A stretch of DNA of 46,855 nucleotides. It comes from a virus. The DNA is taken from IMG/VR virus record IMGVR_UViG_3300045928_000117, positions 1 to 46,855 of that record. The stretch is one strand, 5' to 3'. Shown here piece after piece: positions 10,024 to 46,855 of the stretch. Made by a program: the position numbers and the translations under genes. Position 1 is the first letter of the stretch, and each line of letters starts with the position of its first letter. The notes beneath the pieces were generated by a model. The model had not been told where the DNA came from, made no database searches, and saw only the letters and a program-made list of their open reading frames with translations.

Positions 10024-10413
10024 ATGCGTCTATTCGCTTCGATCGCGTGCGTGTGTCTGCTGTCTGTCGGCGTGTTTTCGGCGCCGAAGGTGCCCACCGG
10101 CACACTTGACCTGAATCCAGGTTCCACGCTCGTCTATCACGCTCAATTCTGGTTCGACTACACGATTTCAGGCAGTAATTCGTGGAACCCGTATATCGAG
10201 GTGCTTTGCTACCAGGCCGGCGTGCTCATCGCAGGCGACCAGAAGCCGGCCTCGTTCCAGGCCGTCAACCACTTCATCATCGGATGGGGTGAAGGTGACC
10301 CGCTGCAGTCGGCACAGTGTCTCGCACGGCTGACTCAGTTCGTCCGCTCTGGCTGGAAAGACCCAGGCCAGCTGCACGTGCTCGATACGGTGACGTTCGA
10401 CATCACCCCCTGA
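10024..10413 (+). CDS. Exported protein with signal peptide
   Basis: ATG 10024 has AGGAGG upstream. The first 19-20 residues form a signal peptide (MRLFASIACVCLLSVGVFSA with a likely cut after FSA). The mature part of about 110 residues is beta-rich with aromatic and Cys residues (two or more, perhaps a disulfide) and no known domain. Export of a phage protein encoded beside tail-fibre genes is unusual: it might act on the host envelope or in superinfection control. Its TGA shares TGATG with the next gene. Confidence 0.6.
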   Translation: MRLFASIACVCLLSVGVFSAPKVPTGTLDLNPGSTLVYHAQFWFDYTISGSNSWNPYIEVLCYQAGVLIAGDQKPASFQAVNHFIIGWGEGDPLQSAQCLARLTQFVRSGWKDPGQLHVLDTVTFDITP

Positions 10414-13400
10414 TGGCAACAACGGTCTACTGCTGCGGCGGGGAGTGTGGAATTTTTGACGGGACCCATATCGCCACGGTCTCGGGTTCTCCAGCCTTCA
10501 GCACGACGACAGTTCGATCGGGCAGTCGGTCGATCCGTACGCAACACGCGGCCGGAGCGAGCACGACGTTCGGGACGGCCGGACACTCACCCGGCAACGA
10601 AGTCGGCCGAGCCTATGTCTACTTTGCCACGCTACCAGATAACGACGTCGACATCGTTACGATCAATGGGTTCGGGCTCAGATGTAAGACCGACAACAAA
10701 ATCTATTCCTGGAAAACAGGTGCCGAGAGCGCCTCCGGTATCTCGGTCTCATCTGGGCAGTGGATCCGTCTAGACTGGAAACTTGACGACGCGTCTAATA
10801 CGTTCGACGCGTCGGTCAACGGCTCAGCCCTTGGTCAACTCACGAGTGTCACGCTGAGCGCGTCTAGTGCGCAATTCGGCATCCTCACGCCGAGCGGGAC
10901 ATCGACAGCCGATCTGTTTTGGGATGACATCGCGCTGAGCGTGACCCTGGCTGACTATCCGCTCGGGGCAGGGATCGTCAATCATTTCGTTCCAACATCA
11001 GACGGCACGCACAACGTCGCCGGGACCGACGACTTCGAGCGAGGTAATACCGGAACCGACATCAACAACGCGACCACAACGGCGTATCAACTCGTCGATG
11101 ACGCGCCGCTGCCGAGCGGTGCGGTCAGCGAGGCCGACTGTATCCGCATGGTGGCGCCTCCAAATTCAACCGATTACGTCGAGGTGGTGTTCGGTCCCGC
11201 ATCTGGGATTAGCACGCCCACTGTAGCCCCGCGCGGCGTGGAAGTCATCGTCGTCCACCACCAGATTGCGACGACGAGCGGAAACATCAGGCTCGCCCTG
11301 AACGACAACGGCACCACGGACGACGTCCTGAATCTCACGGCGAACGGCGTCACCACGTATCGGTACGCGCGCAAGCACTACGCGGACCCTCCGTCGGCGG
11401 CATCGGCGTGGACGCTGAGTGGGAACGGAAACTTCAACAACGTACGCATACGTGGGTTCTCGTCTGACGCGAACCCGGATCAGTGCTGGGATGCGGCGCT
11501 CATCGAGGCCGAGTTCGCAGCCGTCGATGAACCTGTGGGCGCGTTCATTAGCTCGACCGCCGCTCTCATGGCTGGCGCGGTGGTGCTTGTGCTCTCTGGC
11601 GCGACCATCACGAGCGGGTCGCAGTTGTTCGCAGGGTCGTCAAATATTCTCGGTGAGTCGATCGCGAGCGCGGCGCAAATCTTCTCCGGAACGACGAGCC
11701 ACACGCTGACCGGGGCCACCATCGCGAGCGGCTCAGCGCTCAATGCCGGATCAGGCGCGCTCGAAGTCAACGGTTCGACGGTAGCGGCAGGCTCTCAGGT
11801 CTTCGTCGGCGAGTCGTCGCTCGTGGTTGACGCCGCCACGATCGCGAGCACACTCCAGGTCTTTGCCGGCGTTGTCATCGGCGATCAGACGCTCGACGGC
11901 GCATTCATCAGCAGCGGACACGCCCTGACGTCCGGCGCGGTCGCGCTCGGTGTCGACGTGGCGGCGATAGGGGCTGGCACTCAACTCTTCGCCGGATCGA
12001 CGTCGCAGGATGTCTCCGGCGCCACGATCTCGGCTGGCTCGCAATCGTTCGCCGGGACGGTGGCGCTCGGCATCGATGGGGCGTCGATCTCGGCCACGAC
12101 CACGCTCAATGCAGGCAACGTCTCTGTCGATGTGTCCGGCGCCACGCTGGCGTCAGACGCGCAGCTCTTCGCAGGTTCCGTTGTGCTCGGCGTGGACGGG
12201 TCCACGATCACCGCAGGGCATCAGCTCTTTGCCGGCGTCGTCGCCGCTGAGCGGTCTGTTGATGGCGCCTTCATCCCCAGCGGTTCGAGCCTATCGGCTG
12301 GCTCAGTCGCGCTCGAGGTCGCCGGCCCGACGGTCGCCTCCGGGCACCAGCTCTTCTCGGGGACGGTCAGCCTCGATGTCATCGGCGCGACGATTGCGAG
12401 CGGGCACCAACTCTTCGCTGGGACGCTGATGGAAGAGGGCGCCATTGCCGGCGCCTCGATCCCGTCTGGCTCGCTTTTCCCGGGATCGGTCGGCCTTGAC
12501 ACGAGCGGCGGGACGATTCCTGGCGGTTCGACCACCGAGCCTGGCTCTGTCGCGCTTGGCGTCGCCGGCGCGACCATTCCCGGCGGCACGGTGCTCTTCA
12601 GCGGCGAGGCCGAGAATCTGAGCGGCCTTCTCGGGGCCTTCATCCCGAGCGGATCGGTGCTGTTCCCGGGGGCCGTGCGCCTCGGCCCGCTGCACATGCC
12701 CGTGCGCGTCTGCGTCGAAGACGCCACGCACGTCGGCCCATCGATCTCAGACATCGCGCACGTCGGTCCGACCATCGTGGCGGCGCATGTGGGGCCGACG
12801 ATTGAGGCGTTCCACATCGCGTGCGGCGAGGATCGTCCCATCGTGAAGCCAGGCCGACGCCAATTCATCTGGGGCGCCTTCATCGAGTCTGACGCCGAGT
12901 TCTTCCCCGGCAGCGTTTTCGTGCCGTATGTCGTGTTCGGGGCAACGATTAACCCGACTGCCGAGCTCTTCCCTGGTACGGCGCTCCTCGAGCAAGCGGT
13001 CGAGGGCGGCACGATCGCCGGCGCTGCCGATGCCTTCCCTGGCGAGACCGCGCCAGCCATCGACGGCGCCACGATTCCGGCCGGGACGGCGCTCTTCGCG
13101 CCGACGGTGCTCAATGCCGGCGATCTGGCTGGTGCCTCCATAGAGGCCGGCTCTCAGGTCTTCCCGGGCAGCCTCACGCCAGACATCCTCGGCGATGCGA
13201 TCCCGTCTGGCTCGACGCTTTTCGCTGGCGCCGTCCTGCTACTGGTCTCCGGCGGCACCGTCGAGTCAACTGGCGAGGTCTTCCCCGGCGAGGTCGCGCC
13301 AGAGATCCCGGGCGCCTTCATCGCCGCTGGCGCGCAGCTGTTCCCTGGCAGCGCCGTGACAACGCAGGCAGTCGATGGTGACTTCATCGCGTCCGTATCG

Positions 13401-14183
13401 ACGCTGGCGCCAGGTGCGGCCGCGCTTGAGATCTCCGCCGAGGCGATTCCGTCAGGCGCGCAGCTGTTCCCTGGGGCGGCTGGCGTCACGCAGGAGATCT
13501 CCGGCGCCTCGATCGTGAGCTCGGCCGAACTCTTCGCGCCGACGGTGATCCCTGATGGCGACATCGGCGGCGCGACGATCGCCAGCGCCGCGCAACTCTT
13601 CAGCGGCGCCGCGGCCCTGGCGGCGTCGGGCGGCACGATCGCCAGCGGCGCCGCCGTGACGCCTGGATCGGTCGCCTTTGGGATCGCTGGCGGGACGCGC
13701 GCGGCCTCGAGCCAGGTCTTCGCTGGCCTGGCCGGGCTCGACATTAGCGGCCCGCACCGGAGCGCCTCGGCGCAGCTCTTCGCCGGCACGGTCGCGGCGA
13801 TCCGGGACGTGTCCGGCGCCTTCATCGCCTCGGGCTCGAGCGTCGCGGCCGGATCGGTGGCCATGGCGACAAGCGGCGCCACGATCGCCTCAGGGAACCA
13901 GCGATTCGCCGGGACCTTGGCCTACACGGTGGCAGGCGGGACGAAGACGAGCGGGAGCCAGGTCTTCGCCGGCTCGATCGCCGGAGGATTCTCCATCTCG
14001 GGCGCGCATCTCGCCTCCGGCGCGGCGCTCTTCGCGGGCACGCTGCGGCTCAATGTCAGCGGCGCCACGATAGCGGCCGCGTCCACCTCCTACGCTGGCG
14101 TCATCGACACGGAAGGCACAGTGCTCCTCGAGGATGGGGACGACGTGCTGCTCGAGACCGGCGACCGTATGTTGAAGGGGTAA
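10413..14183 (+). CDS. Giant repeat-built tail-fibre-like protein
   Basis: The 1,256-residue product starts with a concanavalin/LamG-like beta domain (about residues 1-185; SGQWIRLDWKLDD, LFWDDIALS) and a second beta domain up to about 370. From residue 376 it is made of about 39 copies of a 19-22 residue unit, consensus GATIASGSQLFAGxVxLxVx, broken once near residues 770-820 by HVGP repeats. The alternating pattern predicts a beta-solenoid. It ends with LLEDGDDVLLETGDRMLKG. Neighbours (a spike-like gene next) point to host recognition. A fibre or adhesin role is inferred; no enzyme motif is seen. ATG 10413 shares TGATG with the previous stop. Confidence 0.65.
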   Translation: MATTVYCCGGECGIFDGTHIATVSGSPAFSTTTVRSGSRSIRTQHAAGASTTFGTAGHSPGNEVGRAYVYFATLPDNDVDIVTINGFGLRCKTDNKIYSWKTGAESASGISVSSGQWIRLDWKLDDASNTFDASVNGSALGQLTSVTLSASSAQFGILTPSGTSTADLFWDDIALSVTLADYPLGAGIVNHFVPTSDGTHNVAGTDDFERGNTGTDINNATTTAYQLVDDAPLPSGAVSEADCIRMVAPPNSTDYVEVVFGPASGISTPTVAPRGVEVIVVHHQIATTSGNIRLALNDNGTTDDVLNLTANGVTTYRYARKHYADPPSAASAWTLSGNGNFNNVRIRGFSSDANPDQCWDAALIEAEFAAVDEPVGAFISSTAALMAGAVVLVLSGATITSGSQLFAGSSNILGESIASAAQIFSGTTSHTLTGATIASGSALNAGSGALEVNGSTVAAGSQVFVGESSLVVDAATIASTLQVFAGVVIGDQTLDGAFISSGHALTSGAVALGVDVAAIGAGTQLFAGSTSQDVSGATISAGSQSFAGTVALGIDGASISATTTLNAGNVSVDVSGATLASDAQLFAGSVVLGVDGSTITAGHQLFAGVVAAERSVDGAFIPSGSSLSAGSVALEVAGPTVASGHQLFSGTVSLDVIGATIASGHQLFAGTLMEEGAIAGASIPSGSLFPGSVGLDTSGGTIPGGSTTEPGSVALGVAGATIPGGTVLFSGEAENLSGLLGAFIPSGSVLFPGAVRLGPLHMPVRVCVEDATHVGPSISDIAHVGPTIVAAHVGPTIEAFHIACGEDRPIVKPGRRQFIWGAFIESDAEFFPGSVFVPYVVFGATINPTAELFPGTALLEQAVEGGTIAGAADAFPGETAPAIDGATIPAGTALFAPTVLNAGDLAGASIEAGSQVFPGSLTPDILGDAIPSGSTLFAGAVLLLVSGGTVESTGEVFPGEVAPEIPGAFIAAGAQLFPGSAVTTQAVDGDFIASVSTLAPGAAALEISAEAIPSGAQLFPGAAGVTQEISGASIVSSAELFAPTVIPDGDIGGATIASAAQLFSGAAALAASGGTIASGAAVTPGSVAFGIAGGTRAASSQVFAGLAGLDISGPHRSASAQLFAGTVAAIRDVSGAFIASGSSVAAGSVAMATSGATIASGNQRFAGTLAYTVAGGTKTSGSQVFAGSIAGGFSISGAHLASGAALFAGTLRLNVSGATIAAASTSYAGVIDTEGTVLLEDGDDVLLETGDRMLKG
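11538..14118 (+). repeat. About 39 coding repeats of 57-66 bp (GATIASGSQLFAG type)
   Basis: Units begin G-A/S-T/F-I and contain LFAG or LFPG at about position 10-13. Most are 20 residues, some 22. Units that start GAFI come at units 1, 7, 13 and 19, each after a longer 22-residue unit, giving a six-unit super-repeat of about 120 residues; the second half is less regular. A 170-bp non-repeat segment with three HVGP motifs (about 12,690-12,870) separates the halves. The same unit occurs five times at 36747-37055. Confidence 0.85.
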
Positions 14184-14188
14184 CGCAC

Positions 14189-15661
14189 ATGGCCGATACC
14201 AAAGTCTCAGCCTTAGCCGCGACGACGGATCCGCTGCACAGCGATCTGATGTACGTCGTCGGCAATCCTGGCGGCACGCCGGTGCCGCGTCGGGCGACGC
14301 TCCGAAACGTGCTCAAGGGCTACGGGCAGAACATCCTGCACTATGGCGCCCTCGGCAACTCGAATTACAGCATCGGCGGCGGCCAGGACGACAGCGACTT
14401 CATTGAGGCCTGGCTCGCGGATCTCAAAGCCACCGGCGGCGCCTCGATCGGCTACGTGCCAGGGAACCGAACGTTTCGATTCACGCGCAAGATAACGATC
14501 CCGAACGGCGTCACGATCCAGGGTCTCGGCGGCTATGACAACGCGCAAGAGACACCTCCAACCTTCGTCTGGGATGGCGCTGACGGCGGGATTGGATTCG
14601 AGTTTACGACGGCGAATCAGAATGTCTTCGCGACCTCCGTCCGCAACATTTGCGTCACCAGCAAGGCGAGCGGGAATCGGCTCGGGACCGCCTTCAAGTT
14701 TGTGACGACTGGCGGCGCGGCCGGCAAGCTCGATTCCGGGACGTTCTTCGAGGACGTCTGGGTCCTGCTCACGAGCTCGCATGCCGTCGAGTTCGTCAAC
14801 AACGGCGCAACCAATTTCGTCTGGCGCGGCGGGCGATTCGATTCGATCGGCGGCTACGCCCTAAAGATGAACCTCGGGGGATCGGGGAAGCAGTTCATCA
14901 TGCGCGGCGAGAACATGACCTATCAGGGCGGCACGGCCGGACAGGGCATGGGGTTCATTTTTCTCGATGGCGAAACCGCGACGGCGAACGGGGATGGCCT
15001 GTCCTTCGTGACGATCGACGGGCTCCACACGGAGTGCAACCAGGACCCGGATACCACTTACAGCGCCGGCGTCAGGCCCTACGACAAGGCCGGGATGATT
15101 CGGCTCGGCGTCAAGCCGTCGCTGTCGACCAAGCAGCACGATCTCCAGATACGCGGCTGGCATCACAGTTTCCCAGGCGGGATCAAGTCGCACAGCTCCG
15201 TGCACATCACGGCGAGCTCTGGATCCTCGGTCGACGCGGCCGACAAGGTCTCGCTGAACATCCGCATGGCGCACACGTTGAGTTCCACGGATACCGGTGA
15301 CGCAGGCACGACGAACGAGGTCCGCGTCCTGGCCGGGCTCGTGCCGTCTGAGCGCATGTGGCCATGGGTCGGGTGCGGGAACGTCGCCGAGTACGATCCG
15401 AGCGTCGGGCCCGACAACACGTCAAACGGCGTGCGGTCCTTCGTCTATCGGCGCGATGGCGCCGAGGCCCATCGCAGTATCGGCGGGATCGCCAGGACGG
15501 TTAGTCAGCTCGATGCGTTTCCCATCGGCCCATGCGGTCCGGTGCTTTGCACGGACTGCACGACGACGACGCTCGGGATCACCCCGGTCGGCGGAGGCTC
15601 GCACAAGATGCTGGTCTTCTACAACGGCGCGAATTGGCGAACCATCGCCGTCGCGAATTGA
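14189..15661 (+). CDS. Tail-spike-like protein (beta-helix)
   Basis: The 490-residue product opens KVSALAATTDPLHSDLMYVV, the short head or adaptor segment common at the N-terminus of phage tail fibres and spikes. After residue 45 it has a pectate-lyase-like pattern: NILHYGALGN, a DDSDFIEAWLADL helix, VTIQGLGGYDN and repeated short beta-strands, typical of right-handed beta-helix spikes that bind or cut surface polysaccharide. The C-terminal 130 residues look like a separate cap. Cys pairs near the end (CGPVLCTDC) are notable. Catalytic residues cannot be named by eye. It lies six bases after the repeat protein, so both may build one adsorption device. Confidence 0.7.
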   Translation: MADTKVSALAATTDPLHSDLMYVVGNPGGTPVPRRATLRNVLKGYGQNILHYGALGNSNYSIGGGQDDSDFIEAWLADLKATGGASIGYVPGNRTFRFTRKITIPNGVTIQGLGGYDNAQETPPTFVWDGADGGIGFEFTTANQNVFATSVRNICVTSKASGNRLGTAFKFVTTGGAAGKLDSGTFFEDVWVLLTSSHAVEFVNNGATNFVWRGGRFDSIGGYALKMNLGGSGKQFIMRGENMTYQGGTAGQGMGFIFLDGETATANGDGLSFVTIDGLHTECNQDPDTTYSAGVRPYDKAGMIRLGVKPSLSTKQHDLQIRGWHHSFPGGIKSHSSVHITASSGSSVDAADKVSLNIRMAHTLSSTDTGDAGTTNEVRVLAGLVPSERMWPWVGCGNVAEYDPSVGPDNTSNGVRSFVYRRDGAEAHRSIGGIARTVSQLDAFPIGPCGPVLCTDCTTTTLGITPVGGGSHKMLVFYNGANWRTIAVAN

Positions 15662-15669
15662 GGGCTCCA

Positions 15670-16110
15670 ATGCAGGTCTTTCAAACCGCGATCAATGTCC
15701 GCGAAGGACAGTCGGGCGTGCTCGTCATGACGCTCCGCGACGAGAACGGCGATCTGGTCGAAACGGCCGCGCTCGATTCCGTCACGCTGGATCTCTATCG
15801 CTGGCACAATGGCGCCTCCGACACCATCAATGGCCGTGAGCAACTCGACGTGCTCAATGCCAACGGCGGCGCCTACTTCGACACGATCCAATCGATGCTG
15901 GACGAAGACGGGAACGATCAGCCGTACAACTTCCGCTTCGATTACGTGCCAGCCGACGTGCCGTTCTTCGGCGAGGATACCGGCAAGCATCAGACTGAAG
16001 TGCATATCGCGCACTTCCGCTTCACTTGGAATGGCGGCGCCGGATCGATGGCGCACGAGTTCAAGATGACCGTGACGAACTTCCGGCGGTTCCCTGTCGA
16101 GACGACGTAG
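15670..16110 (+). CDS. Beta-rich phage accessory protein near the tail spike
   Basis: The 146-residue product begins QVFQTAINVREGQSGVLVM and continues with beta-strand patterning (VTLDLYRWHNGAS, YNFRFDYVP, AHFRFTWNGGAGSM) and ends FRRFPVETT. It resembles small Ig-like or jelly-roll proteins found beside tail fibres, such as baseplate wedge or fibre-attachment parts. No specific family is certain. It starts eight bases after the spike stop, suggesting one transcript. Confidence 0.5.
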   Translation: MQVFQTAINVREGQSGVLVMTLRDENGDLVETAALDSVTLDLYRWHNGASDTINGREQLDVLNANGGAYFDTIQSMLDEDGNDQPYNFRFDYVPADVPFFGEDTGKHQTEVHIAHFRFTWNGGAGSMAHEFKMTVTNFRRFPVETT

Positions 16111-16115
16111 CGCGC

Positions 16116-17273
16116 ATGGATCCACGGGTCACGATCGTTATTCCCACCTATCAGCACGCCGCGTTCGTGCGCGAGGCCATTGCCTCGGCGCTGGCGCAGA
16201 CCGAGCCCTGCCACGTCCTGGTCGTGGACGATGGATCGACCGATGAGACGGAAGCGGTGCTTGATTCGGTATGCAGCCAGGCGATTCGCAGCGGGCAGTC
16301 GATCGAGGTCGTCCGGATTCCGCACGGCGGTCCGAGCGTGGCGCGGAATGTCGGCATCGATCGCGTGCGCGGGGAGTTCGTGATGTTCCTCGATGCTGAC
16401 GACGTCATCCTGCCGCACAAGGTGAAGACCCAACTCGACGCGTTCTCTGATGACGTCGGCTGGGTGCTGTGCGACGTGCAGATCGAAGACGACGTCCGCG
16501 GCAAGGTGACCACCGCCAGCGACCAGTACCGCTACGCACACCGCCAACTGGGCGGGTGGATTGCCCCGCAGCTCGAGGCGGCGAACTTCATCCCCTGTAT
16601 GGCGCCGCTCGTCAGGACGACGGTCCTCCGCGAGCATCTGGTGCGGTTCCTCGACCGTCCGCGCGAAGACTGGGAGTTCTGGTACCACGTCGCGCGCGTC
16701 GCGCGGATGCGCTACGCCCCTGAAGTCCTGGCGATCTACCGGAAGCGCCGGGGCGGGCGGAACAGCGTGCCGGAGACGGCGCTGCTGCAGGCGGTGCCGC
16801 CGCTGCGCCTCAACCTCGGCTGCGGCACGCCAGGCGCGCTCTCGTGGCACCCCATGCCAGGCCTGGTAAACCTCGACCGATCCCTTGGGTGGTGCTTCGA
16901 GGACGGCCTGAGGCAGTTCGCCGACGGTACGGTCGATGGCATCACCGTGTCGCACGCGTTGATGTACGTGCACGAGGACGACTGGCCGAAGGTGTGCGCG
17001 GAATTCGCCCGGGTACTCCGCCCCGGTGGGGTCGTCCGCATTACTGAGGACGACACGGAGCACCCGCATTCGGCGCGTCGCGGCGGGTGGCGTGGCTCAG
17101 AGCCGGCCGTTACATTGACATCGCCAGGCTTCGTCCGCATGCATCTTGAATACGCCGGACTCACAGCGGTCAACGTTGACGCCTATACATCCAACTACAT
17201 CGATGGGTCACTCTGCCAAGCACAGCACGGTCGCCCGCCCGATGTGTTCTTCCTCGAGGGCATCAAGCCATGA
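16116..17273 (+). CDS. Family 2 glycosyltransferase fused to a SAM methyltransferase
   Basis: Residues 1-215 are a GT-A fold family 2 glycosyltransferase: VTIVIPTYQHAAFV, VVDDGSTDET (nucleotide-sugar binding), GPSVARNVGIDRVRG and the DxD-like FLDADDVI near residue 92. From about residue 230 a class I methyltransferase follows: LRLNLGCGTPG (motif I), VNLDRS, VSHALMYVHEDDWPKV and EFARVLRPGGVVRIT. It could add a sugar and then methylate it. The target is unknown; its place after the tail-spike genes and before a PIG-L deacetylase suggests surface glycan work. ATGA overlap joins it to the next gene. Confidence 0.85.
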   Translation: MDPRVTIVIPTYQHAAFVREAIASALAQTEPCHVLVVDDGSTDETEAVLDSVCSQAIRSGQSIEVVRIPHGGPSVARNVGIDRVRGEFVMFLDADDVILPHKVKTQLDAFSDDVGWVLCDVQIEDDVRGKVTTASDQYRYAHRQLGGWIAPQLEAANFIPCMAPLVRTTVLREHLVRFLDRPREDWEFWYHVARVARMRYAPEVLAIYRKRRGGRNSVPETALLQAVPPLRLNLGCGTPGALSWHPMPGLVNLDRSLGWCFEDGLRQFADGTVDGITVSHALMYVHEDDWPKVCAEFARVLRPGGVVRITEDDTEHPHSARRGGWRGSEPAVTLTSPGFVRMHLEYAGLTAVNVDAYTSNYIDGSLCQAQHGRPPDVFFLEGIKP

Positions 17274-19898: not shown

Positions 19899-20462
19899 GT
19901 GTTACAGGAAGTGTCCACACCAGGAGACGCCGCCAAGCCGCTGATGTCGCTGAACGCGTTCGCGAAGCGCCACGGCGTGTCGCACCAGTCGATGATGCGC
20001 GCGGTCGCTCGGGGCCGGCTCTCGGCGTCGCTGAGGACAGGGAAGGACGGCAAGCCGAAGGTCGCCGACGTGGAGCTCGCCGACCGCGAGTGGCGCGACA
20101 ACGCCGACCACTCGAAGGCGCCAGCCTACGTCAAGGAAGGCCGCGATCCGTCGCAGGGTGGCCGCCCCGCGGCTGGTGCACCGCCCTCGGCGCTCTCGCT
20201 GGCATCCACCCGGGAGAAGGAGGCTCGGGCAGCCCTCGCCGAGCTCGAACTCGCGCGGAAAGCTGGTGAGCTCGTTCGGGCGGCGGACGTCGAAGCGGCG
20301 TGGACTGACCAGTGCGCGCAGCTGCAGACCGCGCTCCTCAGCATCACCGCCCAGATGAAGATGCTGCACCCTGACACGCCGCACGCCTGGCTGGCGTCGC
20401 TGCAGGAGCGGATCACGATCGCACTCGAGCTGCTGGCCACACCCGCGAAGGTCGCCTCGTGA
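19899..20462 (+). CDS. Terminase small subunit (Nu1-like)
   Basis: The 187-residue product has an N-terminal winged-helix (LNAFAKRHGVSHQSMMRAVARGRL) and a helical C-terminus (EKEARAALAELELARKAGELVRAADVEAAW) like lambda gpNu1/Nu1-type terminase small subunits. It binds the packaging start and recruits the large subunit. GTG 19899 is the first good start; ATG 19944 is an alternative that begins right at the helix-turn-helix. Its stop overlaps the large subunit GTG. A cos site is expected nearby, but no motif could be defined. Confidence 0.8.
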   Translation: MLQEVSTPGDAAKPLMSLNAFAKRHGVSHQSMMRAVARGRLSASLRTGKDGKPKVADVELADREWRDNADHSKAPAYVKEGRDPSQGGRPAAGAPPSALSLASTREKEARAALAELELARKAGELVRAADVEAAWTDQCAQLQTALLSITAQMKMLHPDTPHAWLASLQERITIALELLATPAKVAS

Positions 20463-22474
20463 TCGCCGGTCTCGCCGACATCAACGCGATCCGCGCTCGA
20501 GCGCTCCAGGCGCTGCGGCCACCGCGACGCGTGAAGGGCTCCGTATGGGCCGACGAGCACTTCTATCTGTCGCCCGAGTCCGCCGCCGAGCCAGGCCGCT
20601 GGCGAACGTTGCCGTATCAGTGCGAACCGCTCGACGCGATGACGGATCCGGCGATCGAGCGCGTGACGTTCATGAAGAGCGCGCGCATCGGGTACACCAA
20701 GATGATGGGCGCCGCGATCGGGTCCTACGTCGCCCAGGACCCGTGCCCCATCCTGATCGTCCAGCCGACCCTTGACGACGCCGAGGGCTACAGCAAAGAA
20801 GAGATCGCGCCGATGCTGCGCGACTGCCCGACCCTCGCGAAGCTCTTTCCCGAGTCGAAGACGCGCGACACCGAGACGACCATCCTGCACAAGAAGTATC
20901 GCGGCGGCGTCCTGCACCTGGTGGGCGCGAACAGCGGCCGCGGGTTCCGTCGGGTGACGCGTCGGGTTGTCTGTCTCGACGAGGTCGAGACGTTCCCGTT
21001 GAGCGCCGGCAGCGACGGCGACCCGGTCCGCCTCGCGGAGAAGCGCGCCGAGACGTTCTGGAACCGCAAGTTCATCATCGGGAGCACGCCGCTGATCGCT
21101 GGAGTCAGCCGCATCGAGCGGTTGTTCCTCGCTGGCGACCAGCGTCGGTACTACGTGCCGTGCACGCAGTGCAGCGAGATGGCCTACCTCGTGTTCGACC
21201 AGGGCAGCGTCGACGCCACTGGCGCCCCCGTCGGGCATTTCATGAAGTGGCCGAAGGGTCGGCCGGAGCTGGCGCACTTCGTCTGCCGGGCGTGCGGCGG
21301 CGTGATCGAGCATAAGGACAAGCGCGCGATTGTGACGGCGGGAGAGTGGCGGGCGCACGCACCATTTGCCGGGCACGCGAGCTTCCACCTGTGGGCGGCG
21401 TACAGCTTCAGCCCGAACGCGACTTGGGCGCAGATCGCCACCGAGTACACCACCGCTGCGGCCGAGGGTCCGGAAGCGCTGAAGACCGTCGTCAACACCG
21501 TCCTCGGCCTCACCTGGAAGGAGAAGGGCGAAGCACCGCCGTGGGAGATCCTCTATCAGAGGCGCGCCATGTACCGAATCGGCACCTGCCCGGCGGGCGT
21601 GCTCTTCCTCACCGTCGGCGTGGACGTCCAGCGCGATCGCCTCGTCTACGAGGTTGTCGGCTGGGGCCGCGGGAAGCGCTCGTGGTCGATCGACGCGGAC
21701 ATCATCCCGGGCGATCCTGCGGACGAAACTGAGCGCGGCCCGTGGCTGAAGCTCGACGCGCTGCTGGATCGGACGTTCCCGTGCCAGAGTGGCGTCGCGC
21801 TCAAGTCCCAGATGCTCGCGATCGACAGCGGCGACAGCACGCAGCACGTCTACAACTGGGGCCGGAAGCATCCGATGTCGCGCGTCATCGCCACCAAGGG
21901 CGACAGCCGCGGCAGTGTGCTCATCGGAGCGCCGTCGCCCGTCGAGGTCACAGTCCGTGGCCGGAAGCTGAAGAAGGGTTACAAGGTCTGGCCGGTCAAT
22001 CCGACCATCGCGAAGGGCGAGCTGTACGGCTGGCTCCGGCTTCACCCGGCGACGGACGAGGCGCGCGCGGCCGGCGCCACTGACCCACCGGGATTCTGCT
22101 CGTTTCCGCAGTACGGCGAGGACTACTTCAAGCAGGTGACCGCCGAGCAGCTCGTGACGACGAAGAACCGGAAGGGCTTCGTCGTGATGGAGTGGACGAT
22201 CATCCCGGGCCGACAGAATCACTTCCTCGACTGCCGCGTCTACGCGCGCGCCGCGGCCGCGGTCGTCGGGCTCGATCGGTTCCAGGAAAGCGATTGGGCG
22301 ACGCTCGAGCGGATCGTCGGCGTGGAGCCGTTGCCGCCGGTGGCACCGCCGGCCGTGGCGTCGACCACCGCGACGACGCCACCTCCGCCAGCGCCGGCGC
22401 CGCCAAGGCCGCAACCACGCCGCGCCCCGTGGCTCGGGAATCGGACAAGCGGATGGCTGCGAGGGCGACGATGA
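20459..22474 (+). CDS. Terminase large subunit (GpA family)
   Basis: The 671-residue protein matches GpA-type terminases: PGRWRTLPYQCEPLDAM, the ATPase adenine/Walker-like MKSARIGYTKMM, LIVQPTLDDAEGYS, the Walker B region RVVCLDEVETFP, a Cys pair finger (CTQC, later CRAC) and the nuclease part VGVDVQRDRLVYEVVGWG and LAIDSGDS. It cuts concatemers and drives DNA into the head. A GpA-type enzyme suggests cohesive-end packaging. The last 70 residues are Pro/Ala-rich. It overlaps terS by GTGA and the next gene by ATGA. Confidence 0.95.
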   Translation: MIAGLADINAIRARALQALRPPRRVKGSVWADEHFYLSPESAAEPGRWRTLPYQCEPLDAMTDPAIERVTFMKSARIGYTKMMGAAIGSYVAQDPCPILIVQPTLDDAEGYSKEEIAPMLRDCPTLAKLFPESKTRDTETTILHKKYRGGVLHLVGANSGRGFRRVTRRVVCLDEVETFPLSAGSDGDPVRLAEKRAETFWNRKFIIGSTPLIAGVSRIERLFLAGDQRRYYVPCTQCSEMAYLVFDQGSVDATGAPVGHFMKWPKGRPELAHFVCRACGGVIEHKDKRAIVTAGEWRAHAPFAGHASFHLWAAYSFSPNATWAQIATEYTTAAAEGPEALKTVVNTVLGLTWKEKGEAPPWEILYQRRAMYRIGTCPAGVLFLTVGVDVQRDRLVYEVVGWGRGKRSWSIDADIIPGDPADETERGPWLKLDALLDRTFPCQSGVALKSQMLAIDSGDSTQHVYNWGRKHPMSRVIATKGDSRGSVLIGAPSPVEVTVRGRKLKKGYKVWPVNPTIAKGELYGWLRLHPATDEARAAGATDPPGFCSFPQYGEDYFKQVTAEQLVTTKNRKGFVVMEWTIIPGRQNHFLDCRVYARAAAAVVGLDRFQESDWATLERIVGVEPLPPVAPPAVASTTATTPPPPAPAPPRPQPRRAPWLGNRTSGWLRGRR

Positions 22475-25774: not shown

Positions 25775-27871
25775 TTGCTACGTTCCCAAGGCGCCAGATC
25801 AGGTGGCACCTTCGGGCTCGTGCCCACGGCTGATCAGCCGACGCTACAGACCACCGTCGAACTGCCACCGCTCTCCAGGCTTGCCACGATTACCCCGGCG
25901 AGTATCGACGAAGAGACCAGAACCGTCGAGGTGACGTTCACGACCGGCGCCGCTGTCAAGCGCTTCGACTGGCGTACGGGCGAACTCTTCCTCGAAAAGC
26001 TCTCGCTCAAACCGGAGCACGTCCGCCTTGATCGCTTGAACGCTGGGGCGCCAGTGCTCGACTCTCATTCCGGCTGGCGGCTGGCGAATCAGCTTGGCGT
26101 CGTGGACGAGGCGAGCATCGACGGAAAGCGCGGCCGCGCCACGCTCCGGATGTCGCAACGCCCCGAAGTGGACGGCACGTGGCTGGACATCAAGACGAAG
26201 GTTGTCCGCAACGTCAGCGTCGGGTACGAGGTCCACGCCTATCAGGACGTCCCGCAGAAGGACGACTCCAAGCTCCGGACACGGATCGCCGTCGACTGGG
26301 AACCCTACGAAATCAGCTTCGTGCCGATGCCGGCCGACATGCACGCGCAGACGCGCGACGGCAAACGCCAGGACATTCGCACCCATACCGCCGTGATCGT
26401 CACTCGCTCCGAGGAGACTCCAATGCCCGAGACGCAGGTTCAGCAGCCATCCGCCGAGCGCCAGCCGTCGGAGTATCTCGTCGAGCAGCCCATCGGGCAG
26501 TCGCCGCAGCAGCGTGCGGCAGCGCCGGCCGCGGCGGCAGCGGAGCCGAACGATCGCGACCTTGGCGCGACGCAGGAGCGCGAGCGCGTGCAGGGCATCC
26601 TGACGGCCACACGGGCGGCTCGCCTCCCGCAGGCCTTCGCCGATCGCCTCATCGCCGATCCGGCGATGACGCTCGTGCGCGCGCAGTCGGCGGTGTTCGC
26701 CGAAATGAACGGCCGCGAGCCCGACCTCCCGATTCGCGGCGGTCAGCCGGAGATCACCCTCGTCGATGGCGGCCCACTCGTACATCAGCGTGCCGGGATC
26801 GAGAACGCGCTCCTCCACCGGGCCGCGCCAGCGATGTTCGCGCTCGACGACAAGGGCCGGGAGTACCGCGGCCTGTCGATGCTGCGCATCGCGGAGATCT
26901 ACCTGAACTCCCGCGGCGTCCGCACGACCACCATGAACCCCGACACCATCTCGCGGATGGCGCTCGGGCTCGACACGAGGGCCGGCCTCCACACGACTTC
27001 GGACTTCGCGAATCTGCTCGCCGACGTGGCGAACAAGATCCTGCGTCAGGCCTACGAGGCCGCGCCGCAGACGTTCCAGCCGATCAGTCGTCAGCGCACC
27101 GCGAGCGACTTCAAGCAGATCAACCTCGTGCAGTTGGGCGAAGCCCCGGCGCTGCTCGAGGTGCTCGAGCACGGCGAGTTCACCCGCGGCACCATCGGCG
27201 ACGCGAAGGAACCGTTTCGCCTGAAGACCTACGGCCGCGTTTTCGGCATCACGCGCCAGGCGCTCATCAACGATGACGTGGACGCCTTCTCGCGCGTGCC
27301 GATGTTGTTCGGCCGTTCGGCGCGCAACCTGGAGTCGGACGTCATCTGGGGCCTCATCACGGCGAACGCCGCGATGCAGGACACCTTTGCCATCTTCTCG
27401 ACGCAGCACGCCAATCTGCAGGCCGACGGCGACGTCATCTCGATCGACTCGCTGAGCCGAGCACGCCAGGCCATCCGACTCCAGACCGGCCTGGACGGCG
27501 TGACCATGCTGAACCTCACGCCGCGGTACCTGATCGTGCCGCCATCGCTCGAAACGGTCGCGCAGCAATACGTGACGCTGACCATCCAGGCGATCGAGGC
27601 CATCAACGGCAACCCGTTCGCCGGCACCATGCAGGTCATCGTCGAGCCGCGCCTCGAGGCCAACAGCTCGACGGCGTGGTATATGGCCGCGTCGCAGGAC
27701 CAGATCGACATGGTCATCTACGCGTACCTGGAAGGGCAGAGCGGGCCGGCCATCGAGCAGCGTCTCGGGTTCGACATCGACGGGCTGGAGATCAAGGCCC
27801 GCCACGACTTCGGAGCGGTCGTCGCCGATTTCCGCGGTCTTCACAAGGATCCGGGCGAGGGCGTCAGCTAG
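25775..27871 (+). CDS. Prohead protease-major capsid protein fusion
   Basis: The 698-residue frame holds three parts. Residues about 30-190 are a U35-type prohead protease with catalytic His in LDSHSG (about 98) and Ser in NVSVGYEVH (about 148). A Gln/Ala-rich linker (about 220-260) looks like a scaffold or delta region. Residues about 300-698 are a major capsid protein of the Mu gpT/HK97-like type (RFDQ-type patches such as FKQINLVQLGEAPALLEVLEHGEF, YGRVFGITRQALINDD, RYLIVPPSLE, QDQIDMVIYAYLEGQ). The start is not secure: TTG 25775 is the longest, with GTG 25820 an option. An internal ATG at 26423 has a good Shine-Dalgarno. Confidence 0.88.
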   Translation: MLRSQGARSGGTFGLVPTADQPTLQTTVELPPLSRLATITPASIDEETRTVEVTFTTGAAVKRFDWRTGELFLEKLSLKPEHVRLDRLNAGAPVLDSHSGWRLANQLGVVDEASIDGKRGRATLRMSQRPEVDGTWLDIKTKVVRNVSVGYEVHAYQDVPQKDDSKLRTRIAVDWEPYEISFVPMPADMHAQTRDGKRQDIRTHTAVIVTRSEETPMPETQVQQPSAERQPSEYLVEQPIGQSPQQRAAAPAAAAAEPNDRDLGATQERERVQGILTATRAARLPQAFADRLIADPAMTLVRAQSAVFAEMNGREPDLPIRGGQPEITLVDGGPLVHQRAGIENALLHRAAPAMFALDDKGREYRGLSMLRIAEIYLNSRGVRTTTMNPDTISRMALGLDTRAGLHTTSDFANLLADVANKILRQAYEAAPQTFQPISRQRTASDFKQINLVQLGEAPALLEVLEHGEFTRGTIGDAKEPFRLKTYGRVFGITRQALINDDVDAFSRVPMLFGRSARNLESDVIWGLITANAAMQDTFAIFSTQHANLQADGDVISIDSLSRARQAIRLQTGLDGVTMLNLTPRYLIVPPSLETVAQQYVTLTIQAIEAINGNPFAGTMQVIVEPRLEANSSTAWYMAASQDQIDMVIYAYLEGQSGPAIEQRLGFDIDGLEIKARHDFGAVVADFRGLHKDPGEGVS
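26411..26425 (+). promoter_or_regulatory. Internal ribosome binding site for scaffold/capsid
   Basis: GAGGAG at 26411-26416 lies six bases before ATG 26423, in frame with the capsid. This is a better start signal than the one at the head of the fusion gene and would give a 482-residue scaffold-capsid product beginning after the protease domain, as in other protease-scaffold nested genes. Confidence 0.6.
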
Positions 27872-31150: not shown

Positions 31151-33451
31151 ATGGCCGCCGGGCAGCGCCTATCCCGCGCGTATCTCGAGCTCGCGCTCGA
31201 GCGCACGCAGTACAGCCAGGGTCTCGCGCAGGCGAAGGGTGAGCTCATCCGATTCGGCGCGGAGGCCAAGCGGGTCACCTTCCGCGACATGGTCCAGGGT
31301 ATGTCGGCGGCCGGCCAGCAGGCGTCAGCCTCGTCGAAACTGATTGCCGGGGTGGGCGCTGCCGGGCGCCAGGCCGCGGTGGCACAGTTCGAGGCGGCCA
31401 GGGCCTCTCAGACCTGGACGCAGCGGCTGCAGGCGATGGGCGCGCAGTCGGCGATTGCCACGCGCGCCGGGTCCGCGCTCACCGGTGTCTGGAAGACCTT
31501 CGGCGCCACACTGGCCGTCGGAGCCGTGATTGGCGCCGCGCGATCGATCGGCGAATTCTCAGGCCGCATGATCGATCTCTCGCAACAGACCGGCATCGCC
31601 ACGTCACGCCTGCAGGCGCTCGATGCGTTGGCCGCAGGCGTGGACCTGACGGTCGAGGATCTCGCGACCTCCGTGCAGCAGCTCCAGAAACGGTTGGCCG
31701 GCGGTGACGACTCGGCCGAGGCTGCCGTAGAGGATCTCGGCTTCGCGGTCGGCGAATTGCTCGCCATGAAGCCGGACGAGATGTTCATCGCCATCGGGGA
31801 AGCGGTGGCCAAGATCGAAGATCCAGCCGAGCGCACACTGAAGGTCTTCGAGCTCATGGGGCGGACCGGGACGCAGTCGCTGCGCCTCATGACGGACCAG
31901 CTGGGGAAGCTCGTCGACGATGCTGAGAAGAACGGGCCCATCATCCGGGACGAGGTCCTCCGGGCGGCCGACGCCTTCGACGAGTTCTTCGAGCGCGCCG
32001 AGCGCCGAGCCAATGCGACAGTCGCGAATATCTTCGGCACGCTCGCGGCTGGCGTCACGGGTTGGCGTGCGGTCTTCGACGGCGCGCTTTCGCGGCCGGC
32101 GCTGGGCCCACCATTTGACCCCAGCAAGGTCAAGACAGGCGCGACCGGCATCGTCCACGGGACCGGTATCCCCGCCCGCGACGCCGCAGCGGAGGCGGCA
32201 GCCGCGGCGCGGCGCAAGGAACGCGACCGGGCCGAGGCCGACTATCGCGAGCACCTGAACCGCATCGGGGAGCAGGAGATCCAGTCGATTGAGGACCGGC
32301 AACAGGCGGAGGAACAGGCCGCGGCGCGGCAGCGGCAATTCCTGAACGAGATCGGCGAGCAGGAGATCCGCGACCACGCAGATAGCATCCAGCAGAAAGA
32401 GGCGCTCGACGCGGAGTACCGCCAATTCCGAAACGAAATCGAGGAACAGATCATCACCGACCACGCGGCCTCGATCGCGCAGCAGGCGCAGATCGACTCG
32501 CAGTATCGCCAATTCCTGAACCAGGTCGAGGAGCAGCGGATCGAGCGCATCGCCGACGTGCAACGGCAGATCGTCGATCGGCAGCAGCGTTTCGCCGATG
32601 ACCTGACCTACAGCATCACGAACGGGCTCGCCGACATGCTGGTCGGGCTGCGGTCCTTCCGCGATGGGTTTGTCGGAATCTGGCAGGACATCCGCCGGTC
32701 TGTGGCGAACGTCCTGAGCCAGATGCTCGCGGACTTCATTGGCGGCTATCTTCGGCGGGCGGTCGCCGCGGCCACGGGCGGCGCCCTCTTCGGTGGGGTC
32801 TCAGCCTCGGCCGGTACCGCGGCCGGGTTCGTCGGAGGCGGGCCGAGCATCGGCGGGATCGGAGCCCTCCTCTCGAATCCCCTCACATGGGCCGTCGCCG
32901 GAGGGATCGGCCTCGGTATCGCGCTCAAGAAAGGGATCTTCCGTGGCGGCGAAGAGGGGACGTCGGTCAACCCTCGGCGCGATCGCTTCGTGGGGCAGTT
33001 TGGCCCGCCAGGCACGGGTCCAGGCTCTGGATTTGCGAACTTCAACGCCGCGTTGCACAGCCGCCAGCTCTCGGCCGCGGTGTTCTCGGCTGACACCGTC
33101 GCGGAGTGGGAAGCTGCGCAGGCCGCAGCCGTTGAACGCTTCCGGATCATGGGTCGTCCGGTTCAGTCGTTCGCTCATGGCGGTTACGTGCCGCCTGGCG
33201 TCGTCATGCCGGCGATTCTGCACGGCGGGCGCCGCGGCGAGGTCATCACGCCGCTCGATCGGACGGAGACGGCCCAGCCTCAGAGGCCGATCGTCATCAA
33301 CAACCACCTCCATATTGCCGGCGTGATTTCGCCGGAGACGATCCCGGAGATCCACCGCAAGTACATCGTGCCGCTGAACAACGACGCGCTCACCAGGAAC
33401 GCCGGCGGATCGGCCACCGAGGTCCGGCGCGTCGTGCGAGGGCGGGCGTAA
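31151..33451 (+). CDS. Tape measure protein with coiled-coil repeats
   Basis: The 766-residue product follows the GT pair, as in all long-tailed phages. It opens with helical segments (GQRLSRAYLELALERTQYSQG), hydrophobic Ala/Gly helices around residue 115-140, and four copies of a 29-31 residue coiled unit (about residues 364-482; YRQFLNEIGEQEI type). The end has hydrophobic/Gly-rich stretches and the C-terminal AHGGYVPPGVVMPAILHGGRRGEVITPLDR signature. It sets the tail length and may form a channel at DNA injection. ATG 31151 is four bases after the GT stop, and it shares TAATG with the next gene. Confidence 0.92.
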   Translation: MAAGQRLSRAYLELALERTQYSQGLAQAKGELIRFGAEAKRVTFRDMVQGMSAAGQQASASSKLIAGVGAAGRQAAVAQFEAARASQTWTQRLQAMGAQSAIATRAGSALTGVWKTFGATLAVGAVIGAARSIGEFSGRMIDLSQQTGIATSRLQALDALAAGVDLTVEDLATSVQQLQKRLAGGDDSAEAAVEDLGFAVGELLAMKPDEMFIAIGEAVAKIEDPAERTLKVFELMGRTGTQSLRLMTDQLGKLVDDAEKNGPIIRDEVLRAADAFDEFFERAERRANATVANIFGTLAAGVTGWRAVFDGALSRPALGPPFDPSKVKTGATGIVHGTGIPARDAAAEAAAAARRKERDRAEADYREHLNRIGEQEIQSIEDRQQAEEQAAARQRQFLNEIGEQEIRDHADSIQQKEALDAEYRQFRNEIEEQIITDHAASIAQQAQIDSQYRQFLNQVEEQRIERIADVQRQIVDRQQRFADDLTYSITNGLADMLVGLRSFRDGFVGIWQDIRRSVANVLSQMLADFIGGYLRRAVAAATGGALFGGVSASAGTAAGFVGGGPSIGGIGALLSNPLTWAVAGGIGLGIALKKGIFRGGEEGTSVNPRRDRFVGQFGPPGTGPGSGFANFNAALHSRQLSAAVFSADTVAEWEAAQAAAVERFRIMGRPVQSFAHGGYVPPGVVMPAILHGGRRGEVITPLDRTETAQPQRPIVINNHLHIAGVISPETIPEIHRKYIVPLNNDALTRNAGGSATEVRRVVRGRA
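32240..32595 (+). repeat. Four coding repeats of about 87-93 bp in the tape measure gene
   Basis: The unit reads like YRQFLNEIGEQEI followed by an Asp/Glu/Gln-rich stretch of about 16 residues. Four copies occur in a row, with drift. Adding or losing units would change tail length in whole steps. Confidence 0.65.
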
Positions 33452-36053: not shown

Positions 36054-39000
36054 GTGGGCACTTCCGTCAAGGACATCCGCTCGAAGAACCAGGGCTCAGG
36101 GAACAACTGCGTCCTCGACGCCTTCTCCGTCGATCCCGCGTCGGGGGATGCCATCTTCGCTGTGACGGCCAGCTTCTCGTCCGTCTCGCACTCGGCGCCC
36201 ACCGACTCGATGGGCTCCACCTATACGCAGATCGGGAGCACCACGGACTACTCGGGCGCGACCGGCGGATTTCTGGTCTCGTTCTGGTACGCGCAGAATG
36301 TCAGCGGCGGGAGCGGCGTCCAGGTCACGCTGAAGTGCAACAATCCCTTCGGCTTCATGGGCGGATGCGCCTGGCTCCTGACGGGCGTGCCGGCCTCGGC
36401 GTACAACGGCGACGGCTCGATCACGACCGGATCGGCGACCTCAACGCCGACATCACCAACCGCATCGACGCCGGCCGGCGCCACGTTCTTTATCGGCGCC
36501 ATCGCCGCGATCAGGAATACCTCCGATCCATCGCTCACCGACGGATCCGGCTGGAATACAACCGGCCAGTACGGGATGGATGCCTCGATCGTCGCACGGG
36601 CTGAAACCGGCGGCAATTCGATCTACGTCTCGACCGAGTACAAGGTCTCGAGCGCCGGGGAACAAGCGACGTGGGGGGCCAACGCCACGGCGCTCACCTA
36701 CGCGTCATTTATCGCCAGCTTCGGATCCGAGGACGCGCAGATCGACGGGGCCTTTATCTCGTCGGGCTCGCAGCTCTTCGCCGGGCACATTCCGCAGGAC
36801 GCTAGCGGCGCGCATCTCTCGTCCGGTGGCCAACTCTTCGCGGGATCCGTCACGGCAGATCTCACCGGCGCGACGATCGCGAGCGGGCATGTCCTCTTTG
36901 CTGGCGCCGTCACGACCGACGCCGCGATTGACGGGGCCACGATCGCCTCCGGATCGGTGCTCTTTGCTGGCGCCGTCGTCGGGTCGATTACGGGCGCGCG
37001 GATCCAGAGCGGTCTCCAACTCTTTGCCGGCTCCGTCGCGCCATGGTCCTCGATCGCCGCGCCGATCGAGGTCTCGCCCTCGCCAGTCATCGGGCCGCTC
37101 GGATCGCTGCTGTACATCTTTTCCGATATCGAGATGAACTGCCCGGCCGAGTGGTACGGCGGGCCGAAGGATGCGCGCGTCGAGCGGACGGGATACGGCG
37201 AGCGGACCGCGTCGGACTTCGTCACGGGCGAGCCAACGAGCGCCACGATGACGTTCCGCCTCGCCGACAAGGACTTTTTCTTTCGCCGGGCGATGGCCAG
37301 CCGCGATCGTCGCCATTGGATCGACCCGGTCACGGTCCATATGACGACCCGGGACAACCGCGCAGCGCTTGGGCAGGCGTATCTGGTCTTCGTCGGCCCG
37401 ATCATCGATGCGCAGCCCGCGCGGCCGCTGGCCTGGGAGTTCACCCTCGCCGATGTCGTCACACAGCGGATCCGGAACGACCGCGCGGTGCATCCGTCTC
37501 GGCTGATCGGCGACGGCTTCATCCACGACGTGAATCCAAATGCCCTCGGCACGAGGGTGCTGCTCTCGTCGGCGCTGAACTACGAAACGCCAGAGCCCAC
37601 CATCTACGGCGAGCATCGTCGCGTCCGCGATGTTGACCCGCCATCCGCGCATGGCTTCGAGGTCGATCTGACCGAGCATTACCTCGGGATCTGGAACATC
37701 GACGGCAGCGACAAGCACGTCTGGATCGCGGCTGCGCACGCCTGCGCCGGATTCCCCGATGTCAACGTCGTGGCGCCAGACGGGACGCACACCACGGTGA
37801 TTCCAGACGAGGGCCTGGGCTGGTGGATCCCGCATTATGCCGGGTGGACGAGCATCTTCGGCGCGCCCTACGTCGACATCAGGAGTACGTCGTTCGGGAA
37901 CGACCGGCGGTACGCCCTGATCCTTGGCCTGGTCGGGTTGCCGAACCAGGATGCGTGCGCCTATTCGAGCGGTGGCTATGCCATGGACCCCGCGCCGGAG
38001 GTGCCGCTACGGCTGATGGCGTTCATCGACGGGATCGAGCCGAACGGGGACGGCAGCGGCGGGGTGATCTGGCAGGGACCGCTCCAGTACAAGCATTGGC
38101 AGAAGAACTATGGCACGCGGACCGCCGCGGACAGTTATCAGGCTGGGCCATGGAAGGCATCGCCGGTGTGGTCGCTCCCGTTCGGCGATGGCGATGTGCC
38201 GCTGGTCGACGAGCCGAGTTACGACGTCGTCCAGGCGATCGGCGAGCTTCGCTATCCATCGGACGGCGGGGAGCCGCCGCGGGCCGGGATCGTCGGCGCC
38301 GCCATCATCGGCGCCAAGGCTGGCGACGTGCATCCGCTCACGTACTGGGAGGCGGTCTTCAATCGCTCCAACTTCACCGCCAGCGGCTGGACGCGCCGCG
38401 GTCAGCATCGCATCGGCACGCCGCACCCGACCGAGGCGGTGAAGGCGGCGGCGCGGCTGTACACGGACGCGCTAGAGATGCGTGAGGGGAGCTTCGAGAC
38501 GATCATCCGCGGACGCGATCAAGCGAATCGGATTCCCTGGCGGAATGACCCCGACTATGCCTCGGGGACGTTCAAGGGATCTGGCAAGGTCGACGCGGGC
38601 GATTCGATCGCGAATTACGACCGGGAGATCCTCGGCGCCGAGCGGCTCCTCAATTTCGCGCCTGGCGTGACGATGGCGACGCACATCGCCTTTCTGCACT
38701 CCTGGCTCTTCAAAGACCCGCCGCGCGACGTAGTCTTCGAGGACACGGTCGGCCCGGATCCGATCACCGGGGAATCACTCGGCTATTCCGACCTCTTCGA
38801 CTGGATCGCCTACCGGCACTATGGCGCCGTCGGCACGGCTGGTCAGATTCGGCTGGCCTGGATCGTCCGCAACCAGGTGCAGGCCGGCGCCAGAAAGGTG
38901 CTCGCGCAGGCCTGGGACCTCGACGACCTCATCGGCTTCGACATACCGATCGAGGTCGCGCCGACGGTGAACGACACCTGCGAGACGGCGATCACGATTC

Positions 39001-46136: not shown

Positions 46137-46855
46137 GTGGCGCGAACGGTCGACTTCGATCGATACGTCGCGGCCTGCGACTACCCGGGGACGATCTCTC
46201 CGGAGGTCGTTACGGAGTCGCTCGCGGCGTACATGGCGGCGCTGGGCGTGACGCGCGAGGTGCGGCAGCTACCAGTCGATTGGGACCTAGCCACCGAGGA
46301 GCCGCTGAGGCGAACCGTCGTGGCTGTTCTGGAGGACTTCGCCAGGCGTACTGGTAGGACGTTCGACGCCGCCCGCGACGCCCGCGACGCCCGCGACGCC
46401 CGCGACGCCCGCGCCGCCCTCGACGCCCGCGACGCCCGCGACGCCCGCGACGCCCTCGACGCCCTCGACGCCCTCGACGCCCGCGCCGCCCGCGACGCCC
46501 GCGACGCCCGCGACGCCCTCGCCGCCCGCGACGCCCTCGCCGCCCGCGACGCCCTCGCCGCCCGCGACGCCCGCGACGCCCGCGCCGCCCTCGCCGCCCG
46601 CGACGCCCGCGCCGCCCGCGACGCCCGCGCCGCCCTCGCCGCCCGCGACGCCCGCGCCGCCCGCGACGCCCGCGACGCCCGCGACGCCCGCGCCGCCCGC
46701 GCCGCCCTCGACGCCCGCGACGCCCGCGACGCCCGCGACGCCCTCGACGCCCGCGACGCCCGCGACGCCCGCGCCGCCCTCGACGCCCGCGACGCCCGCG
46801 ACGCCCGCGACGCCCTCGACGCCCGCGACGCCCTCGCCGCCCGCGCCGCCCGCGA
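46137..46855 (+). CDS. Protein ending in an (Ala-Arg/Leu-Asp/Ala)n repeat (3' truncated)
   Basis: GTG 46137 starts a frame that stays open to the window end (239 codons, no stop). Residues 1-78 form a small domain (FDRYVAACDYPGTISPEV, SLAAYMAALGV, DWDLATEEPLRRTVVAVLEDFARRTGRT), helical in part. From residue 79 it is pure A-R-D, A-L-D, A-R-A or A-L-A triplets. The pattern suggests a very long alpha helix with charge pairs. Ala-rich repeat proteins exist in phages, but the exact three-residue register is unusual. Function unknown; the C-terminus is outside the window. Confidence 0.6.
   Translation, partial: MARTVDFDRYVAACDYPGTISPEVVTESLAAYMAALGVTREVRQLPVDWDLATEEPLRRTVVAVLEDFARRTGRTFDAARDARDARDARDARAALDARDARDARDALDALDALDARAARDARDARDALAARDALAARDALAARDARDARAALAARDARAARDARAALAARDARAARDARDARDARAARAALDARDARDARDALDARDARDARAALDARDARDARDALDARDALAARAAR
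46371..46855 (+). repeat. Nine-base tandem repeat array, at least 53 units, cut by the window end
   Basis: Unit GCCCGCGAC. Unit types counted by hand: GCCCGCGAC 29, GCCCTCGAC 8, GCCCGCGCC 10, GCCCTCGCC 6, then 8 bases of a 54th. Only bases 5 (G or T) and 8 (A or C) vary. Both changes alter the amino acid; no silent change is present. None of the six frames has a stop in the repeat. Larger blocks are duplicated. Confidence 0.9.

Follow-up and report, generated by a model that had tools for sequence, protein, structure and literature searches.

Two genes of an environmental phage, gene A and gene B, carry tandem arrays of the same 20/22-aa protein unit, and the two arrays have diverged widely at the DNA level. 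We consider it probable that the unit belongs, as a Gly-type form, to a repeat widespread among phage tail proteins, that the arrays share an old ancestry followed by long divergence, and that they form beta-rich stalks or spacers. The previously unannotated repeat of this phage is now joined to a broad set of tail repeats, which current family models split or miss. The tail repeat itself was already known; new here are the Gly form and its presence in two genes. The window, i.e., the whole stretch of DNA analysed, is a complete IMG/VR virus record and has a length of 46,855 bp.

The repeat unit in gene A and gene B

In a tblastn search of the record, the gene B array matched gene A at ten positions, with E 1.1e-22 for the best of them, and the DNA motif of the unit had four matches in the window as compared to 0.00 expected from 100 dinucleotide shuffles. 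Together with the listing of the individual units, these results confirm the observation of an earlier sequence-only reading that one module is common to both genes. The 43 window units used (one gene A unit with a one-residue deletion was excluded) give the consensus G-A-T-I-A-S-G-S-Q-L-F-A-G-S-V, and 95% of them have Gly at the turn position.

Gene A, for which we read the ATG at 10413 as the likelier start, has 39 units between nt 11538 and ~14126, arranged in two blocks with a 58-aa insert between them (Table 1). In the first block, units 6, 12, 15, and 18 are 22 aa long. The three-unit superperiod of this block has an identity contrast of 0.061, which was reached by 1 of 5000 permutations, with three being one of six moduli tried, and is not evident in units 20-39. 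The 490-aa protein encoded directly 3' of gene A had neither a family match nor a PDB match. A glycosyltransferase-like gene (16026-17273; phrog_22739 and others) lies close to the gene A region.

Table 1. Coordinates of the two repeat genes, their parts, and neighbouring features in the window
Feature	Position	Strand	Basis or remark
Gene A, repeat protein, 1288 aa	10317..14183	+	open frame
Gene A units 1-19, weak three-unit superperiod	11538..12698	+	
Insert between gene A repeat blocks; three HVGPTI/HVGPSI-like motifs	12699..12872	+	read directly
Gene A units 20-39	12873..14126	+	
490-aa protein directly 3' of gene A	14189..15661	+	tailspike-like by eye
Tape-measure protein gene	31151..33451	+	phrog_9483, E 1.4e-11
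Gene B, putative tail-tip protein, 1109 aa	36054..39383	+	open frame; C-terminal homologue in record G020
Gene B parts: N-terminal domain aa 1-227; five repeats aa 232-335; C-terminal part aa 337-1109			
Five repeat units, 20/22 aa, in gene B	36747..37058	+	G-A-T/F-I-x-S-G-x-x-L-F-A-G-x-V...

The units of gene B start at aa 232, 252, 272, 294, and 314 (nt 36747, 36807, 36867, 36933, and 36993). Five units had been placed at 36747-37055 in the gene beginning at 36054, about 22 kb from the giant repeat protein, which is gene A. Both placements hold; the array ends at about 37058, and 22.6 kb separate the end of gene A from the first gene B unit. Gene B is named by no Pfam, PHROG, or NCBIfam model and has a weak PDB match to a hexapeptide left-handed helix (E 0.0044). 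We infer that it encodes a tail-tip protein. The tape-measure gene precedes gene B, which places it in the tail-tip region, and a homologue of its C-terminal part is similarly placed in record G020. This homologue, a 586-aa frame (L085:8613-10370; phmmer E 4.3e-10), lies downstream of a tape-measure gene and has neither the N-terminal domain nor the repeats of gene B; the repeat occurs in a separate 276-aa frame of the same record. Absence of the repeats from this homologue and their presence in gene B indicate that tail-tip proteins can either have or lack this module. A search of 398 genomes from a single bacterial phylum with a profile of the C-terminal part, run without a positive control, gave no match.

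DNA-level comparison of the two arrays

Tandem Repeats Finder reported no array of the 20/22-aa unit in gene A or gene B because the unit copies are too divergent at the DNA level, and this divergence argues against recent amplification. Over 45-nt cores, units of the two genes have a mean DNA identity of 0.563 and a maximum of 0.756, and the longest exact match between the genes is 16 nt. As controls, synonymous codons of the gene B array were redrawn at random from the codon usage of the phage (four genes pooled). The 16-nt match was reached by 47% of 500 draws and the best unit identity of 0.756 by 45%; the mean of 0.563 was reached by 8% of 300 synonymous draws. At identical residues, the same codon is used in 671 of 1491 comparisons between the genes (0.450 versus 0.455 expected) and at a frequency of 0.485 within gene A (versus 0.459 expected). 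Synonymous sites between the two arrays are saturated, and there is little trace of recent amplification within gene A. As codon identity and exact matches are at the level of the controls, the DNA gives no sign that the genes exchanged sequence recently.

These results bear directly on the proposal of the sequence-only reading that the module was exchanged by recombination within the genome, possibly as a device for rearranging receptor-binding parts. A unit common to both genes and a protein identity that is higher between the genes than within gene A would be expected from recent exchange or gene conversion. However, the nucleotide alignment of the units, which had been suggested as a check for gene conversion, gave no exchange signal in codon identity, longest match, or best unit identity, and Tandem Repeats Finder detected no array of the unit. 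Gene B has one near relative, on a contig fragment with 100% identity across the 14,631 bp compared; this fragment did not yield gene A. Recent exchange is therefore extremely improbable. Of the proposed module exchange, the shared module stands and ancestry within the lineage is likely, but no mark of recent recombination or conversion is seen in the DNA. Nucleotide divergence, together with related phages in which only one gene has the repeat, had been named as the evidence that would speak against exchange, and much of it was found: the DNA is divergent and the homologue of the gene B C-terminal part in G020 has no repeat, but a separate small protein of G020 does. More generally, the presence of a second repeat gene in a genome does not have to imply active recombination.

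A wider family of phage tail repeats

Relatives of the repeat were sought with a Pro-type pattern, which requires Pro and was chosen from a resemblance, and which yielded 20 viral and 18 genome loci. With an external-unit HMM, ORFs having two or more units were recognized in 18 of the 20 viral loci and in one of the 18 genome loci, counts that are not independent of the seed, as the HMM was built from those same external arrays. Gene B, which was outside the seed, scored 14.9 bits (E 0.0088) with this HMM, and gene A was absent among the matches listed. In phmmer comparisons with the L049 protein, the gene B array scored 100 bits and the gene A array 58 bits, as compared to at most 13.7 and 7.7 bits for shuffled proteins; scores of several other external arrays were no better than those of shuffled controls. 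Alignment of the window repeat profile with an external profile of seven rows (Brujita gp24, Catdawg gp61, and stretches of four metagenomic arrays) by hhalign gave a probability of 97.4 (E 1.2e-11), versus at most 0.3 for 30 column-shuffled controls. With the window profile, the L070 array was also retrieved from its genome of 3.2 Mb (E 7.9e-13), and this genome is one of the two that matched among 298 genomes of a phylum other than the one searched with the gene B C-terminal profile.

The proteins of L049, L034, L047, and L070 match phrog_8501, annotated as 'minor tail protein' (E 2.8e-19 to 2.9e-72), as does the L042 protein, and Brujita gp24 and Catdawg gp61 match the full model. The arrays of gene A and gene B had no phrog_8501 match in hmmscan at E <=5, and the window record had none at 0.01; the window arrays are linked to this family by profile-to-profile comparison and by transitivity. 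Judged from these sequence comparisons, the 20/22-aa repeat is not private to this genome. Like the window arrays, Brujita gp24 and Catdawg gp61 consist of repeats ~20-24 aa long that follow the pattern I-x-S-x-x-x-[V/L]-x-x-P-x-V. Unlike them, they stand alone as five-unit proteins of 132-133 aa, have Pro at the turn, and are encoded by one gene per genome. One and the same module occurs in minor tail proteins that stand alone, in proteins with long arrays, and in tail-tip proteins. Passages of a proteomic account report 304 peptides of Catdawg gp61 by mass spectrometry of an unpurified lysate and the presence of Corndog gp64 in twice CsCl-banded particles (PMC4351075); size and gene order alone suggest that Corndog gp64 is the homologue of Catdawg gp61. 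The evidence for virion association in this family comes from these two proteins. Titles and passages of the open PMC literature that we searched held no description of the repeat.

Arrays of the Gly form appear to be confined to this phage in the data searched. Three strict Gly-type patterns in viral contigs retrieved only this phage and its identical contig, apart from a chance match (L103) that we rejected as a Gly-type array, and one Gly-type pattern in genome contigs retrieved no array. Gly is at the turn in 41 of 43 window units and in 5 of 125 external units, a contrast inflated by the Pro-requiring pattern with which the external set was found. INPHARED held no tblastn match to P0001, P0002, or the L049 array (E 1e-3), nor to part of the gene A array (E 10). 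Relatives of the terminase were located at 17 loci, one of which is the identical contig; the other 16 records, many of them fragments, had neither a gene B homologue nor a match to the repeat profile. In the window itself, terminase large subunit models match two frames, 2023-4011 (phrog_2666, E 6.8e-19) and 20459-22474 (phrog_15, E 1.5e-246).

Among the records examined, only the window has a second repeat gene. All 16 external repeat-bearing records that were scanned whole had one repeat ORF, with the qualification that several are near-duplicates, all are possibly fragments, and the scan may have overlooked short divergent arrays. One ORF each matched phrog_8501 in Brujita, Catdawg, and Pam2, and one repeat ORF each was present at loci L036, L043, and L052, of which L043 is in record G026 and already among the 16. 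Identity between units of gene A and gene B is 0.523, as compared to 0.438 within gene A, 0.680 within gene B, and 0.328 and 0.386 between L049 and gene A or gene B, respectively. The external arrays compared were nine metagenomic ones, including L049, and Brujita gp24; identity of either window array to the nine others was <=0.371. Each of the two arrays resembles the other more than it does any external array recovered, and an old common ancestry within the lineage is therefore likely, as far as can be judged from units of 15 aa, whose shortness precludes a tree that could establish the arrays as sisters. A position of the gene B units near the consensus also fits these identity figures.

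Architectures in other phages illustrate how the repeat is combined with other parts. L049 (IMG/VR 3300031565_000795, 1156 aa) has the closest array found to those of the window, with 31 units; it differs in having Tyr-Ala-Pro where the window has Phe-Ala-Gly and in being the one repeat gene of a 13,976-bp record. L050 (IMG/VR 3300037193_001484, 734 aa) resembles gene B in following a tape-measure gene and in having four repeats between an N-terminal domain and a C-terminal part, but neither of these parts has detectable homology to gene B. L049 and L050 have homologous N-terminal domains and the repeat in common and differ in the rest. Homology was not detected between the gene B N-terminal domain and L049 or L050, nor between the N-terminal part of gene A and L034, whose repeats come after a Laminin_G_3 domain. 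In one phage protein (L047:6542-8524), tail-type repeats flank a DUF6298 domain on both sides. According to passages of a study on crAss-like phages, BACON repeats are likewise beta-rich tandem repeats in tail genes, and some contigs have several ORFs separated by other genes, which is a precedent of another kind; BACON is an unrelated, Ig-like domain, and the multi-ORF contigs are without tail tandem arrays (PMC6949934).

Possible origin and role of the arrays

Structure models of the arrays had low confidence. AlphaFold2 predicted the gene B array (131 aa) with pLDDT 59.9 and pTM 0.47 and gene A units 1-12 (247 aa) with pLDDT 64.5 and pTM 0.57; both low-confidence models have short repeated strands, with two per unit in the latter. 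Foldseek found no PDB match at E <=0.001 for the array models, the top-ranked entries being mostly beta-helical or pentapeptide-repeat solenoids, and one match of the gene A model to an unnamed BFVD entry (E 5.2e-4, TM 0.37). Triple beta-spiral fibre shafts are homotrimeric and have Gly/Pro turns. Alternation of Gly and Pro at one position is seen across the window and external units. Repeat length, position, and the tail annotation of the family suggest that the arrays are beta-rich stalks or spacers.

In the reading that we favour, the 20/22-aa unit would be the Gly-type form of a widespread, phrog_8501-like tail repeat with the consensus I-A-S-T-x-x-V/L-Y/F-A-P/G-T-V, present as a long array in gene A and as a five-unit array between the N-terminal domain and a tail-hub-like C-terminal part in gene B. 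A few units may have been duplicated or transferred between tail genes, or both arrays may have come from one donor; the arrays would then have diverged independently for a long time. Both proteins would be located in the virion, and each unit would form two short beta strands; the arrays would probably serve as beta-rich stalks or spacers, keeping virion-bound domains at a fixed distance from those that face outward.

Independent acquisition of each array from a common pool of tail repeats, with the Gly form reflecting the donor pool or convergence, is unlikely. It would agree with the modular nature of the repeat, as seen in the N-terminal domains shared by L049 and L050 and in the combinations with DUF6298 and Laminin_G_3, but none of the four Gly-type searches, three in viral contigs and one in genome contigs, revealed another Gly-type array. 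We regard as quite improbable the idea, also raised by the sequence-only reading, that the arrays dock in the virion as matched tip and fibre. The repeat would then be a docking code between two virion proteins, and the arrays, packing together and evolving under one constraint, would be kept alike by protein-level selection. The Gly form in both genes, the record's singular possession of two repeat genes, and an identity between the genes that exceeds that within gene A despite saturated synonymous sites are what docking would predict. However, gene B units near the consensus give equal numbers, and the repeat evidently functions without such a partner in other phages, whose genomes have just one repeat gene.

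It is very improbable that the repeat is a 6-fold beta-flower domain (Bflower_3, PF21786). The gene A protein (P0001) reaches 38.9 bits with this model, above the cut-off of 34, but only as a sum over the protein; no single stretch passes, gene B scores 14.5 bits, and sub-threshold matches occur in 6 of 14 control genomes. Moreover, the hairpin-tip motif [DNEQ]XXG, as given in passages on the domain (PMC10584680), is absent from the window consensus. With the summed score alone passing and the motif absent, we did not accept a beta-flower identity.

Two further features of the window were recorded. A fusion of prohead protease and major capsid protein is encoded at 25775-27871 (NF045541, 691 bits, cut-off 525). 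At 46370-46855, ~54 copies of the 9-bp unit CGCCCGCGA form an array that extends to the record end and, when read in one of the frames, codes for an Asp-Ala-Arg/Leu-rich repeat; this array is possibly the reason why the contig ends at 46855.
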